The notes beneath the pieces are model-generated. The model was not told the DNA's origin, did not search any database, and worked only from the letters and a program-made list of their open reading frames with translations. A DNA stretch of 64,000 nt from the NCBI GenBank assembly GCA_023954155.1, contig JAMLIO010000007.1, positions 1 through 64,000 of the forward strand, written 5' to 3'. Origin of the DNA: Pseudobdellovibrionaceae bacterium (lineage in GTDB: Bacteria; Bdellovibrionota; Bdellovibrionia; Bdellovibrionales; UBA1609). The position numbers and the translations under genes are program-made. Numbering within the stretch: position 1 is the first letter of the stretch; each line of letters starts with the position of its first letter. This document shows positions 24,198 to 61,143 of the stretch, piece after piece.

Positions 24198-27002
24198 CTA
24201 GGCAGCTGCTTTTTTGGCATTGGCCTTTACAAAATCGATCACTTTGGTGACATTTTCTGGGTATTTGTCTTTTTCATAAGACAGCCCAAGAAGCCCTGTC
24301 TCACTGACAAACCGAACTCTGGCAACAAGCATAACGCTCTCATCAAAGTCATCCGCATCCAGCTTTACTTTGACCACATCCCCTAAGTGCAGACCATCCA
24401 CACCTGTCATACCAATACCAGATTCACTTAAGTTATCCAGCTGCCCGATCTGCACTCCGCCTTCAAATTCCACAGAGACAGTCCCTGTAGCCTGAATACG
24501 TGAGTGGCGTCTAAACCCAATACCTAGCCCCGACGAAAGCTCAGGAACATCAAATAAATTTTTCCAGTCAATAAAGCCTTCACGCCACAAGTAAATAAAA
24601 TCTTTGATCTCATAGTCATCTATGCTTTTCATCACTTGGCTTAATGTGAGTGGTCCTTCCGACTCGCCCTCATAAGCAATATACCAAACAAAGTCTTCCT
24701 GCATGCGCTTTTCTTCATTCATCTTATGCGCAATCACCTTAAGATCTTCGACTCGAGTAGCCCCTTCAAGGTCATACTCCGAATCCTGATCCTGTTCGGC
24801 ATCCGTCCCAGAGGCACTGACTCTTGTAGCCCCTTCTTCATCTGAGTCTTCTTGTAAGGCTTCTACGGGAACATCTCTTGTGATCTCTTCTTCAAACTCA
24901 CTTAGATTTTCTTCTACGCTGGACTCTGAAGCGTTCACGCGTGTGGCTTCTTCTTCTTCCGCCTCAGCATCTAATTCAGAAGCGTCAAGTTCATAAGGTA
25001 AGTCGTCCTCATCTTGCTGATCCTCTTCGGTGGCCACCAAAGAATGTTCTACCACACCCAAGGCATGACTCACACGGGTTGCACCTTCTTCTTCATCGTG
25101 AGCCTCTTCATCATCTGCCAAAGACGCACTGACTCTGGTCGAACCTTCGGCTTCATCGTCTTCAATACTAAAAGCTTCAAAGAGTTCATCTTCAGAACCT
25201 TCAATATCTTCGATGTCCTCTAGATCATCAATATCATGTAAGTCTTGCGTAGAGGCACTCACACGAGTGGCCCCTTCTCCATCATCCAAGTCATCTTCAT
25301 CGTCTATATCATTCAGAAGAGCTTGCAGTCTGGCTTCATTGTCATCCTCTTCAGAAGCTTGAACACGTGTAGCCTCTTCATGCTCATCGTTTTCATCTTC
25401 AACTGATGAACCTTGAACTCTAGTGGCTTCTTCGCTCTCCGCACTCAATTCAGCGTCGTCATGAGCCAAGTCGTCCATAAAAACACGAGTGGCTTCTTCT
25501 GTTGCCGATTGACCGCTCCATTCTAAATTTTCCACTTCTTCATCTTCTGACTCTCGGCCCGCAGGCACATTTTCCATGTCCATCAGTGAGTCCACACGAG
25601 TGGCATCTTCAATGACTTGGCTGACACCATCAAAATCAAAATTATGATCCTCACCCTCTTCTTCGCCTCTGGCTTGCACATCTGAATCTAAAAGCGAAGC
25701 CATATCAATTTGCGATTCACTAACTTGGGTTTGACCATCAAAGCTCAGATCCAACTCTTCATCTACAGATCCTTCTTGATCTGAATCCTCACCCGAAGGT
25801 GGGCTGAATGCTGAACCTAAAATAGAGGCTAAATCGTCGTCCCCATTTGAACTTTCATCTTCTTCTAAATCACTTAAATCTAAAGAGGCACTTACACGAG
25901 TGGCACCCTCTTCTTCATCTGAATCGTCTTCCAAATCAGACAAAGAAGCACTGACTCTTGTCGCCCCTTCTTCTTCATCGTCAGAGTCCGCATCCAGATC
26001 AGAGAGTGAAGCACTTACGCGCGTGGCACCTTCTTCGTCTGCTGCATATTCATCATCTTTCACATCTGCATGTTCATCAAAAGATTCAGACTGCTCTTCA
26101 AGAAGTTGTTCTATGTCTACAGTGCCTTGATCTTCGACGTACGTAGGTTTAGCGGCTACAGCCTCTTCTGGATCATCCGCTGAGCCTGCTTCTGCTAACA
26201 GCTCCTCAATGTCCGCACCTTGCACTAGCTGCTCTTGAGCATCATCCAACAGGTCTTCTATCTCTTGTACAGAATCTGAAGTCTCTATAACATCAACGGC
26301 CTCGTATGAATCAGAATGAGACATGGGCTCTTGCGTGGCCTCTTGCCGTAAAGGAATAACATTGTCCACATCTTCCTCAGCAGGAATCTCAAGCGGAAGA
26401 TCAACAGTAGACACCATTGTTCTTCCATCGTCCTCTAAGCCACCAACTTCAGAAGTAGGCTGCACATAAACTGCCGTCGCATCAGGATTAAAATCCGAAG
26501 AGCCAGTGTCATGTGACACATGACCTGAAGCTCCCGAATGAGGAACCTCTGAAGACGAGTGAGTAGGTTGAGAGTACGCTGACACTATAGGTTCAGAATG
26601 AGTTGACTGAGAATATGCCGATACCACAGGCTCAGAATGCGTGGACTGGGAATGACCTTCTTGGTGCTGTTGCACTTCACGATGTGTAGAACGTTGTGGT
26701 TGCTCAACAGGAGACGGCTCTGCCGCTATAGCAGCAGGAGTCACGTAAGATTCACTCACTGGAGATTGCGACGCCTGGGAATGGTGCACTTGCGAATGAC
26801 CGCGACGGAAGCTTGAGCTTTGTTGCGCCACGGCTCCCATATTCATTTTTCTTGCCCAATCCGTGAAGGACAACCACTCTTGGTGGGGCACACCCCAAAT
26901 CAAAACATCAGCCTCGGAACCAAACATTTGCGCGACACTGTTTGTTTCATAAGGTCCTAATACATCACCGTTTTTTAATACGAACCATTCCATACAGTTC
27001 AT
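24198..27002 (-). CDS. GYF - TRV-repeat - GYF - PilZ signalling protein
   Basis: A GYF_2-like domain opens the 934-residue protein (about 5-55, WFVLKNGDVLGPY). A Ser/His/Gln-rich region follows to about 170, then a very acidic segment (about 170-750) with thirteen copies of an (A/S)TRV core, mostly in the context EEGATRVSAS, spread over about 324-750. A second GYF_2-like domain (about 765-820) and a PilZ domain (about 829-934, with RRHSR and NLSESG, the c-di-GMP-binding motifs) end the protein. It is probably a cytoplasmic c-di-GMP effector. The repeats resemble phospho-threonine FHA ligands, which is inference. There is no ribosome site before the ATG, so the exact start is uncertain (a second ATG is three codons in). 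Confidence 0.85.
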   Translation of the reverse strand: MNCMEWFVLKNGDVLGPYETNSVAQMFGSEADVLIWGVPHQEWLSFTDWARKMNMGAVAQQSSSFRRGHSQVHHSQASQSPVSESYVTPAAIAAEPSPVEQPQRSTHREVQQHQEGHSQSTHSEPVVSAYSQSTHSEPIVSAYSQPTHSSSEVPHSGASGHVSHDTGSSDFNPDATAVYVQPTSEVGGLEDDGRTMVSTVDLPLEIPAEEDVDNVIPLRQEATQEPMSHSDSYEAVDVIETSDSVQEIEDLLDDAQEQLVQGADIEELLAEAGSADDPEEAVAAKPTYVEDQGTVDIEQLLEEQSESFDEHADVKDDEYAADEEGATRVSASLSDLDADSDDEEEGATRVSASLSDLEDDSDEEEGATRVSASLDLSDLEEDESSNGDDDLASILGSAFSPPSGEDSDQEGSVDEELDLSFDGQTQVSESQIDMASLLDSDVQARGEEEGEDHNFDFDGVSQVIEDATRVDSLMDMENVPAGRESEDEEVENLEWSGQSATEEATRVFMDDLAHDDAELSAESEEATRVQGSSVEDENDEHEEATRVQASEEDDNEARLQALLNDIDDEDDLDDGEGATRVSASTQDLHDIDDLEDIEDIEGSEDELFEAFSIEDDEAEGSTRVSASLADDEEAHDEEEGATRVSHALGVVEHSLVATEEDQQDEDDLPYELDASELDAEAEEEEATRVNASESSVEENLSEFEEEITRDVPVEALQEDSDEEGATRVSASGTDAEQDQDSEYDLEGATRVEDLKVIAHKMNEEKRMQEDFVWYIAYEGESEGPLTLSQVMKSIDDYEIKDFIYLWREGFIDWKNLFDVPELSSGLGIGFRRHSRIQATGTVSVEFEGGVQIGQLDNLSESGIGMTGVDGLHLGDVVKVKLDADDFDESVMLVARVRFVSETGLLGLSYEKDKYPENVTKVIDFVKANAKKAAA

Positions 27003-58685: not shown

Positions 58686-58868
58686 AGAAATTTGCTCCTT
58701 TAGGCCTAAAATGTAGGGCGTCCATTAGGTGTACAATCTTTTCCTTGTTTTTTCTAGCCTTTGGCCGATTTTTTGGCTTTTTTAAAAAAATTAGAATTTC
58801 AAGCATTTAAGTCCTTCTCTTCTCAAACCGATACAAAACAAAACGAGAAGTGTAAGGGGCATATCTAT

Positions 58869-60635
58869 ATGTACACAAATATCGCGTCAAAAAAGAACTG
58901 TTTAGGATTAGGCTTTTTAGCGTCCATATTTATCATCTTACTCGCAGGCTGCTCTGGAAGTGAGTTTTCTTCTGTCGGTTGCGGAGATGGTGATGATTGT
59001 GATGTGGGAGGCCTTTCTTATTTCTGGGATATTTCTGATTGGCAAGGTTGCGATAAGACCTGCGGTGGCGGAACAGAACTCCGAACCATTGTCTGCCGTG
59101 ATACCGATGGAAATAAAGTTCCTGATAAACGATGCCCTGGAACTAAAGAGCCCACTTCCCGAACCTGTAACACCCACTCTTGTGCTGGCGATTACGATTG
59201 GTTGATTGGCAGCTGGGGAGCGTGTTCTGAAGTGTGCGGTGGCGGACAAAGATCACGTTCCGTAACTTGTAAACACAAAGATGGAGCCACTGAAGCTGAC
59301 AACAAATGTCCAAGTCCAAAACCCGCTACTAGCGAAACTTGTAACTCAGACCCTTGTACTTCAGGATACTACTGGAAAGTTTCTGAATGGAGCACATGTT
59401 CTAAAACTTGTGGAACAGGAATCAGAACACGAACAGTATCTTGCGTCAACGGCGCAGGACAAGCAGCACCTAACGATTCACTTTGTGAAGGCACACGCCC
59501 TGCAGAACAAGGAACATGTAACAGTCACGCTTGTGAATCCACTTACACCTGGTACACAGGAGACTGGGGCAACTGTTCTAAAACTTGTGGTGGCGGGATT
59601 CAAACTCGTACAGTAGCGTGTTTACGTGACAATGGTACATTTGCTGCCGAATCTTACTGTAGTAGCGCTGGTCCAAGACCCCAAGACACAAAAACTTGTA
59701 ATTCACAAGCGTGTGGTCCTACATGTTCCAACACTAAATACATCAACACTCAAGTGCCAAACACTTCAAATCAGTTAGACATCTTGATTGTGGTGGATGA
59801 CTCTGGATCTATGGCGGCTGACAACCAAAAGTTAGCACAAAAACTTAAAGGTTTTACTGACGATCTTGAGCAACGTTGTAATATCACCGACTGGCAAATG
59901 TGTATCACCACTACAGACGTGGACTACTATGAGGGACGCGCGATCATGTGGCAGTCTCATGGACATCATATTCTTAAAGCAGGAACACCTAACATCCATA
60001 ATATTATCACTAACACTATGACATGGATTGGACACGGCTGGAGTTCTGACGAACAAGGAATCAAAGCGATTAACCTTGCCGTTCAACAAAATAACAGAAC
60101 TAAGTGTTTCAGAGACAAGGCCGCTATGTCTGTCATCTTAATCTCTGATGAAGACGAACGTTCTGTTGGTGGAAACCAAGCTTTAAGTTCAACTCAATAC
60201 AAACCACTTGGAGCACTTAACTACCCTAACTCTGTTCCTACAACCATTAAGACCTACTTAGGTAATGACAAGAAGTTCAACGTGAACTCTATCATTGTAA
60301 AGGATGCTCAATGTAAAGCTACTCAAGACGCTCAGGGTGCAGGAGCTAAGAGTTTCTATGGTACAAAATACCAAGAACTTTCTAACCTCACTGGCGGTGG
60401 TGTAGGCAGCATTTGTAGTTCTCACTACGTGGATCACTTAAAAATGTTTGCCAATAAGATCGTACACACGGTCTCTTCTATCCCACTACAATGTAGACCT
60501 GTGTTTACCCCAAGTGTGACTGTCACACCTGGACACACGGGCCAGTCCTTCAATGTGGTTGATCGAGAGTTAATTTTCACCCCTGTAATCCAAGGCCCAG
60601 CCAATATTACAGGTTCATACTGTTGTGCTCAATAA
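58869..60635 (+). CDS. Lipoprotein with four thrombospondin type 1 repeats and a VWA domain
   Basis: The 588-residue lipoprotein (lipobox LLAGC, Cys 28) carries four TSP1 repeats at about 51-105, 109-164, 168-222 and 226-282. Each has the pattern W-x-x-W/C-S-x-x-C-G-x-G and six cysteines. A VWA domain (about 300-510) has the MIDAS DDSGSM. The start is ATG 58869 with AAGGGG nine bases before; upstream in-frame codons lack a signal peptide. TSP1 repeats are rare in bacteria. VWA plus TSP1 is the adhesin design of apicomplexan TRAP. A surface adhesin for cell contact is a reasonable inference. Confidence 0.85.
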   Translation: MYTNIASKKNCLGLGFLASIFIILLAGCSGSEFSSVGCGDGDDCDVGGLSYFWDISDWQGCDKTCGGGTELRTIVCRDTDGNKVPDKRCPGTKEPTSRTCNTHSCAGDYDWLIGSWGACSEVCGGGQRSRSVTCKHKDGATEADNKCPSPKPATSETCNSDPCTSGYYWKVSEWSTCSKTCGTGIRTRTVSCVNGAGQAAPNDSLCEGTRPAEQGTCNSHACESTYTWYTGDWGNCSKTCGGGIQTRTVACLRDNGTFAAESYCSSAGPRPQDTKTCNSQACGPTCSNTKYINTQVPNTSNQLDILIVVDDSGSMAADNQKLAQKLKGFTDDLEQRCNITDWQMCITTTDVDYYEGRAIMWQSHGHHILKAGTPNIHNIITNTMTWIGHGWSSDEQGIKAINLAVQQNNRTKCFRDKAAMSVILISDEDERSVGGNQALSSTQYKPLGALNYPNSVPTTIKTYLGNDKKFNVNSIIVKDAQCKATQDAQGAGAKSFYGTKYQELSNLTGGGVGSICSSHYVDHLKMFANKIVHTVSSIPLQCRPVFTPSVTVTPGHTGQSFNVVDRELIFTPVIQGPANITGSYCCAQ

Positions 60636-60648
60636 CAAGGAGAGTAAG

Positions 60649-61143
60649 ATGAGCGAAGAAACTAAAAAAGATGACCAAACTTTAGCATCAATAAGTTTTA
60701 TCCTAGGCTTAGTCCTTGTTGGAGCGGCTATATTCTTAGTCAAAAACTTTGATGGCAATTCAGACAAAGTAAAGGCTTTAAAAAGAGCTGACATTTATGC
60801 CCAGCAATTGATCGACAAAGGCTTTGAAGTAGAAGTAGACCGAGACATGCCAGGCAGAACCCTAGCTTCAACCCCTAGTACTGACAGTGAGCTTGTGCAG
60901 GCTCTTGAAGGACCTTTAGGTATTGATCCTTGGGGTTACCCCTTCCACTACTTTGTAGAGAAGCAGCCTAACACTCTTACAGGAAAGATGGTCGTCTGGT
61001 CAGGTGGTCCTAACAATAAATTTGAAACCATTGCTGACGAGATCAAAAACTCATTAAAACAAGGTAAAAATATTCGCTTTGTGGGTGATGATTTCGGTAA
61101 AGTGATCAAATTTAAATTAGATCCAAGCTTTGCCAACAAATAA
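60649..61143 (+). CDS. Membrane protein with pseudopilin-like domain
   Basis: The 164-residue protein has one N-terminal helix (about 17-36) and a soluble domain with LGIDPWGYPFHYFV and MVVWSGGPNNKFET, the pattern of the GspG-type pseudopilin C-terminus (DPWGxPY...GxDN). It lacks a canonical prepilin cleavage site with the Gly-Glu pair, so it is probably not processed by PilD. AAGGAG lies seven bases before ATG 60649. It follows the TSP1-VWA gene by 13 bases and is probably co-transcribed. Confidence 0.65.
   Translation: MSEETKKDDQTLASISFILGLVLVGAAIFLVKNFDGNSDKVKALKRADIYAQQLIDKGFEVEVDRDMPGRTLASTPSTDSELVQALEGPLGIDPWGYPFHYFVEKQPNTLTGKMVVWSGGPNNKFETIADEIKNSLKQGKNIRFVGDDFGKVIKFKLDPSFANK

Follow-up and report, generated by a model that had tools for sequence, protein, structure and literature searches.

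A gene in the 64,000-nucleotide stretch of a Pseudobdellovibrionaceae genome analyzed here (GenBank assembly GCA_023954155.1, contig JAMLIO010000007.1, positions 1 to 64,000; the window) raises the question of what a bacterium does with a lipoprotein carrying thrombospondin type 1 (TSP1) repeats and a von Willebrand factor A (VWA) domain, and whether this protein shares descent with the apicomplexan TRAP family, whose defining VWA and TSP1 domain pair (PMC9019593) it contains. The gene (58869..60635; ATG at 58869, stop codon at 60633-60635) lies on the forward strand, as do the other window features described below unless noted, and codes for 588 amino acids, with four TSP1 repeats followed by a VWA head. 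We propose, at a probability of about 0.6, that the product belongs to the Bdellovibrionales metal ion-dependent adhesion site (MIDAS) family and serves as a lipoprotein adhesin that is anchored in the outer membrane and faces the surface. Relatives in the Bdellovibrio lineage include bacteria that hunt other bacteria.

The TSP1 repeats are recognized by Pfam profile matches at residues 51-105 (59019..59183), 109-163 (59193..59357), 167-222 (59367..59534), and 226-282 (59544..59714). TSP1_ADAMTS (PF19030) is by far the best-scoring model, matching four stretches with 172 bits (E 2.2e-51; curated cutoff, 23.8), TSP_1 (PF00090) scores 75.9 bits (E 2.7e-21; curated cutoff, 21.6), and all four repeats are above the curated cutoffs. 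The reading of these repeats as TSP1, made in the original prediction, is borne out by these profiles and by six conserved cysteine columns, the TSP1 pattern, kept across 33 aligned repeats; canonical cysteines are gone from some repeats. The host genome (2.44 Mb) has no TSP1 match besides these four, and a TSP1 profile search of 14 control genomes returned none. Repeats at the same position in different genomes are only slightly more alike than those at different positions (0.435 versus 0.394), with positions 2 and 4 the best kept between genomes.

The head is left below cutoff by Pfam alone (VWA_2, E 0.075; VWA, E 0.094), and the NCBIfam model MIDASAdhsBdello (NF052240; 113.7 bits, E 1e-32), alignment, and structural modeling identify it as a VWA, or integrin-I-like, domain (residues 303-539; 59775..60485). 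An AlphaFold2 model of residues 296-588, computed from an alignment of the window sequence with 29 IMG/VR VWA relatives, has a predicted local distance difference test score (pLDDT) of 76.5 and a predicted template modeling score of 0.79; a single-sequence AlphaFold2 model of the whole protein was unusable (pLDDT 32.6), and the structural comparison thus covers the head only. In structural superposition by VIA-align, the head model fits the I domains of integrins alpha2 and alpha1 with Z scores of about 16 over some 185-190 residues (for alpha2, Z 16.5 over 188 residues), and it also matches beta-I domains. A profile of 24 relatives searched against PDB gives weak matches (mussel PTMP1, 4.6e-4; integrin alpha-L, 0.14; MIC2, 0.68). 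The MIDAS motif DxSxS (D310, S312, and S314; 59796..59810) is invariant in 24 of 24 relatives, and its three residues, the acidic residue E395 of a DEQ/DER loop (60051..60053), and D427-E428 of ISDEDERS (60147..60152) all stand in invariant alignment columns. The head is therefore confirmed as a VWA domain with intact MIDAS residues, as had been claimed from the sequence. The whole protein has no match among IMG/VR viral contigs, the TSP1 array has none in phages, and the head alignment recovers only general VWA proteins from the viral contigs; a scan of genome contigs gave one weak match, a Clostridia VWA. The viral contigs with VWA proteins number 35 (L149-L183), these proteins being mostly of about 530 amino acids with the VWA domain in the C-terminal half.

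The NF052240 match links the protein to Bd0875, the MIDAS adhesin of Bdellovibrio bacteriovorus. It does not reach the equivalog cutoff of 700 bits, whereas L097, from genome G050, scores 730 bits as a Bd0875 orthologue; judged by these scores, the window protein is a homologue of Bd0875 and not its equivalog. We assign genome G050 (f3/g30) to Bdellovibrio, and hence the order to Bdellovibrionales, because several G050 paralogues sit roughly at the positions that their Bd numbers would predict for a genome close to strain HD100. Numbering in L097 runs two behind that of HD100 throughout, such that its D64 and E211 match HD100 D66 and E213; the equivalent residues of the window protein are D310 and E428. 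Bd0875 is a lipobox protein with a MIDAS fold within a small beta domain built from both termini, and in B. bacteriovorus antibody applied from outside detects it first where predator and prey meet and later on the outer face of prey that have been invaded (PMC11003981). When Bd0875 is lost, about 10% of prey are rounded, dead, and uninvaded, and the D66A and E213A variants fail to complement, whereas Y349A complements (PMC11003981). The two proteins, presumably from the same bacterial order, share a lipobox, a DxSxS VWA domain with a conserved acidic loop residue, and a small C-terminal beta-rich region (residues 540-588, 60486..60632, equivalent to Bd0875 326-378 [PMC11003981]); unlike in the window protein, the MIDAS of Bd0875 lies under a cap region, and there is no TSP1 stalk. 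The closest Bdellovibrio homologue is an uncharacterized 425-amino-acid frame (G050:C1:583139-584089), and further homologues of 765-805 amino acids are Pseudobdellovibrio-like (g44, presumably of that genus). Both kinds fall in the same 47-row head clade (100/99 support), with about 40-49% head identity, and where TSP1 stands here they have either PKD/Ig-like repeats or a linker that is short or of the Pro/Thr kind.

The N terminus supports the prediction of a lipoprotein made originally. A signal peptide (residues 1-27; 58869..58949) has a hydrophobic stretch preceding the lipobox LLAGC (58938..58952), in which Cys28 is predicted to be lipidated, and lipobox-like motifs are present again in relatives. 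The +2 residue is Ser and not Asp, as expected by sequence for an outer-membrane surface lipoprotein. Beside the anchor is a Cys pair (C38...C44; 58980..59000), and a close pair at this place is common to relatives and to the Bd0875 orthologue. The gene is preceded by a Shine-Dalgarno-like AAGGGG (58854..58859), 9 bases 5' of the ATG. Recent transfer of the gene into the genome finds no support, as its GC content (0.445) and that of its third codon positions (GC3, 0.37) are inside the spread of the 21 other open reading frames of the window; the TSP1-coding part by itself has a GC of 0.476 and a GC3 of 0.32.

The VWA head family is present in 138 of the 141 genomes of the order, and 42 of these 141 have TSP1_ADAMTS domains, compared with 7 of 228 genomes from the rest of the phylum. 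The TSP1-VWA combination was read in 11 genomes, which span three families and give 12 distinct proteins: in the window's own family (G000, G002, G023, G026, G029, G030, and G046), the Bdellovibrio family (G077 and G105, the latter with two copies), and a third family (G121 and G122). Six genomes have four repeats; G077, G105, G121, and G122 have two; and G023 has one. Members of the family that lack TSP1 have, between anchor and head, about 40-60 residues, a Pro/Thr-rich linker of greater length, about 240 residues, or about 450 residues of repeats with a weak PKD-domain match (PKD/Ig-like). The head is thus kept while the N-terminal stalk is exchanged among one to four TSP1 repeats, PKD/Ig-like repeats, a Pro/Thr linker, and almost nothing. 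TSP1-bearing heads are clustered in the head tree, with two changes of the TSP1 label versus a mean of 11.2 with shuffled labels, and a Bdellovibrionaceae group that is stalkless or repeat-bearing is nested among TSP1-bearing lines. The tree is rooted by midpoint and does not give the direction of gain versus loss; the TSP1-bearing heads could have a single origin.

We note two identical 444-amino-acid, one-TSP1 VWA frames in G023 (L032, 8477-9790 and 12743-14056), 4,266 bases apart, which are either a tandem duplication or an assembly artifact. Some Bdellovibrionales proteins carry TSP1 domains but no VWA domain. A Bdellovibrio-type lipoprotein of about 913 amino acids (L047:3396-6134, reverse strand) combines PKD domains with a single TSP1 domain, and its C-terminal stretch by eye looks like a Hint-type autoprocessing domain; a comparable frame is in L038, with matches in frames of about 920 amino acids across f3/g30. 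Frames of 494, 596, and 535 amino acids in L049 (G091:C1) have a prepilin-like N terminus (e.g., GFSLIQLM) and TSP1-like repeats C-terminally, and a DUF4832, glycoside-hydrolase-like protein (L042:6653-8533, forward strand) ends in a single C-terminal TSP1 repeat.

The original prediction drew a parallel with TRAP adhesins and left convergence and transfer side by side. The adhesive parallel is supported, and the authors of the Bd0875 study likewise compare its MIDAS head to TRAP and MIC2, with no mention of thrombospondin (PMC11003981). As in TRAP and MIC2, a MIDAS-bearing VWA domain here lies beyond the TSP1 repeats when counted from the membrane. The domain order is indeed reversed along the sequence, since the N terminus is anchored here and the C terminus in TRAP, but not in space, where both would run outward from anchor to TSP1 to VWA. 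Members of the TRAP family are further marked by a transmembrane helix, an acidic cytoplasmic tail, and a sub-terminal Trp (PMC9019593). The window protein has no C-terminal transmembrane segment, since the beta region runs to the end of the sequence (...GSYCCAQ) and no hydrophobic stretch is present there, and it has neither a tail beyond the head nor a Trp near the C terminus; with the TRAP helix and Trp-bearing acidic tail missing, a direct connection to an internal motor is not expected. Neither its TSP1 nor its VWA sequence is closest to TRAP or MIC2. By these features the protein lies outside the TRAP family, with a likeness apparently of design and not of descent. Kinship with TRAP is thus not upheld and convergence is favored, because the VWA head is native to the order, the TSP1 repeats are nearer to ADAMTS and THSD7A, and the TRAP hallmarks are absent.

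The source of the repeats is a separate matter. Searched against solved structures, the repeat profile matches THSD7A best (7.7e-14), followed by thrombospondin-1 (3e-7), circumsporozoite protein (1e-4), ADAMTS-5 (0.037), and TRAP (0.075). The six-cysteine pattern with W..C...CGGG..R.V.C is that of the metazoan ADAMTS, THSD7A, and thrombospondin-1 repeats, and because Cys, Trp, and Arg positions are shared, likeness by chance is unlikely; unlike in the metazoan proteins, the repeats here are part of a lipoprotein of bacteria and are joined to a VWA head. An ancient transfer of TSP1 from animals is plausible. TSP1 arrays are also on four alphaproteobacterial plasmids, and bacterial TSP1 is therefore not unique to Bdellovibrionales. 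On an Azospirillum plasmid (L147, 3197-6540), two TSP1-domain proteins directly follow traA in a conjugation locus.

How might such a protein work? We infer that the lipid on Cys28 would be the membrane anchor and that the four TSP1 repeats, occupying the slot between the anchor segment and a head that is nearly stalkless in many relatives, would form a stiff, disulfide-bonded rod that sets the head at a distance from the cell. At the C terminus, the VWA head would hold a divalent metal through D310, S312, and S314 and bind a ligand, either of another cell or of some other surface, in a bond able to hold under load, and the protein may take part in prey or partner attachment. Exposure on the surface would follow by analogy with Bd0875, and the contact-related setting of the plasmid TSP1 proteins beside traA supports, again by analogy, a role as an adhesin. 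Several observations weigh against this reading. A lipobox indicates an envelope location, not necessarily the surface; the host genome has a nearer Bd0875 relative on contig 9; and the window protein has no counterpart, in the alignment, to the L097 insert that is the Bd0875 cap region (HD100 143-176), a region described as distinguishing Bd0875. The TSP1-VWA form is in only 7 of the 47 genomes of the window's own family, and is therefore no core part of the lifestyle. Homology is also no guarantee of a role in prey entry, because deletions of Bd0767, Bd1483, and Bd3132, which code for three other MIDAS proteins, had no invasion phenotype (PMC11003981).

It is also conceivable, if unlikely, that the TSP1 repeats are the binding part, recognizing a glycan or lipopolysaccharide, with the VWA head as a regulatory or assembly domain. 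Animal and apicomplexan TSP1 domains bind glycosaminoglycans, and the better conservation of repeats 2 and 4 and the TSP1 proteins that have no VWA domain count the same way. However, it is the head that is constant in all members, while TSP1 varies from 0 to 4 repeats with unrelated spacers as substitutes, and the loss of canonical cysteines from some repeats fits a spacer better than a binding site. A role in motility or focal adhesion, in place of prey attachment, is suggested by CglB of Myxococcus, a bacterial surface protein with a VWA domain that acts in gliding focal adhesions; the description consulted makes no mention of a TSP1 stalk (PMC13104615). The NCBIfam CglD model weakly matches two Bdellovibrio-type heads (1e-7 and 9e-7), but both are far under its 400-bit cutoff, the window protein gives no match at E values up to 1, and Bd0875 is much closer among characterized relatives, such that we consider a gliding adhesin improbable.

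The gene starting 13 bases after the stop codon (60649..61143) bears on a further explanation, that the protein faces the periplasm as a partner of this neighbor in secretion or pilus assembly, with no part in adhesion. The neighbor has one N-terminal hydrophobic segment, no prepilin motif was seen in it, and five of six members of its family have a weak match to T2SSG, the GspG domain (best, 0.0011). Its homologues adjoin TSP1-VWA genes in G002, G030, G077, and G105 (twice), but not in G023, G026, G029, or G046. Four TSP1 repeats and a head would, by estimate, exceed the typical width of the periplasm. Bd0875, moreover, was detected on the surface (PMC11003981), and there seems only a slim chance that this periplasmic arrangement holds. 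The surface adhesin remains our preferred reading, and as a guess the neighbor might deliver the lipoprotein to the surface. Elsewhere in the window, on the reverse strand (24198-27002), is a gene for a 934-amino-acid protein that has numerous acidic repeats around an ATRV motif.

A literature search did not find thrombospondin type 1 together with Bdellovibrio, the one paper in which thrombospondin and Bdellovibrio co-occur is unrelated, and papers outside the searched collection are possible. We offer only tentatively, as rather doubtful in its entirety, the fuller account that Bdellovibrionales acquired an animal-type TSP1 array by ancient transfer and placed it beneath their own MIDAS head as its stalk, yielding a cell-attachment adhesin convergent with TRAP in parts, order, and use in cell entry. 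With these findings, the MIDAS-adhesin family of Bd0875 is no longer limited to a few studied proteins but spans the order, with stalks that are exchangeable, and the comparison with TRAP, which the Bd0875 authors had made for the VWA half, gains its TSP1 half. Should the attachment role be confirmed, invading bacteria and invading apicomplexans would have reached one two-domain design independently, and the reason for pairing TSP1 with VWA would become testable in a bacterium.
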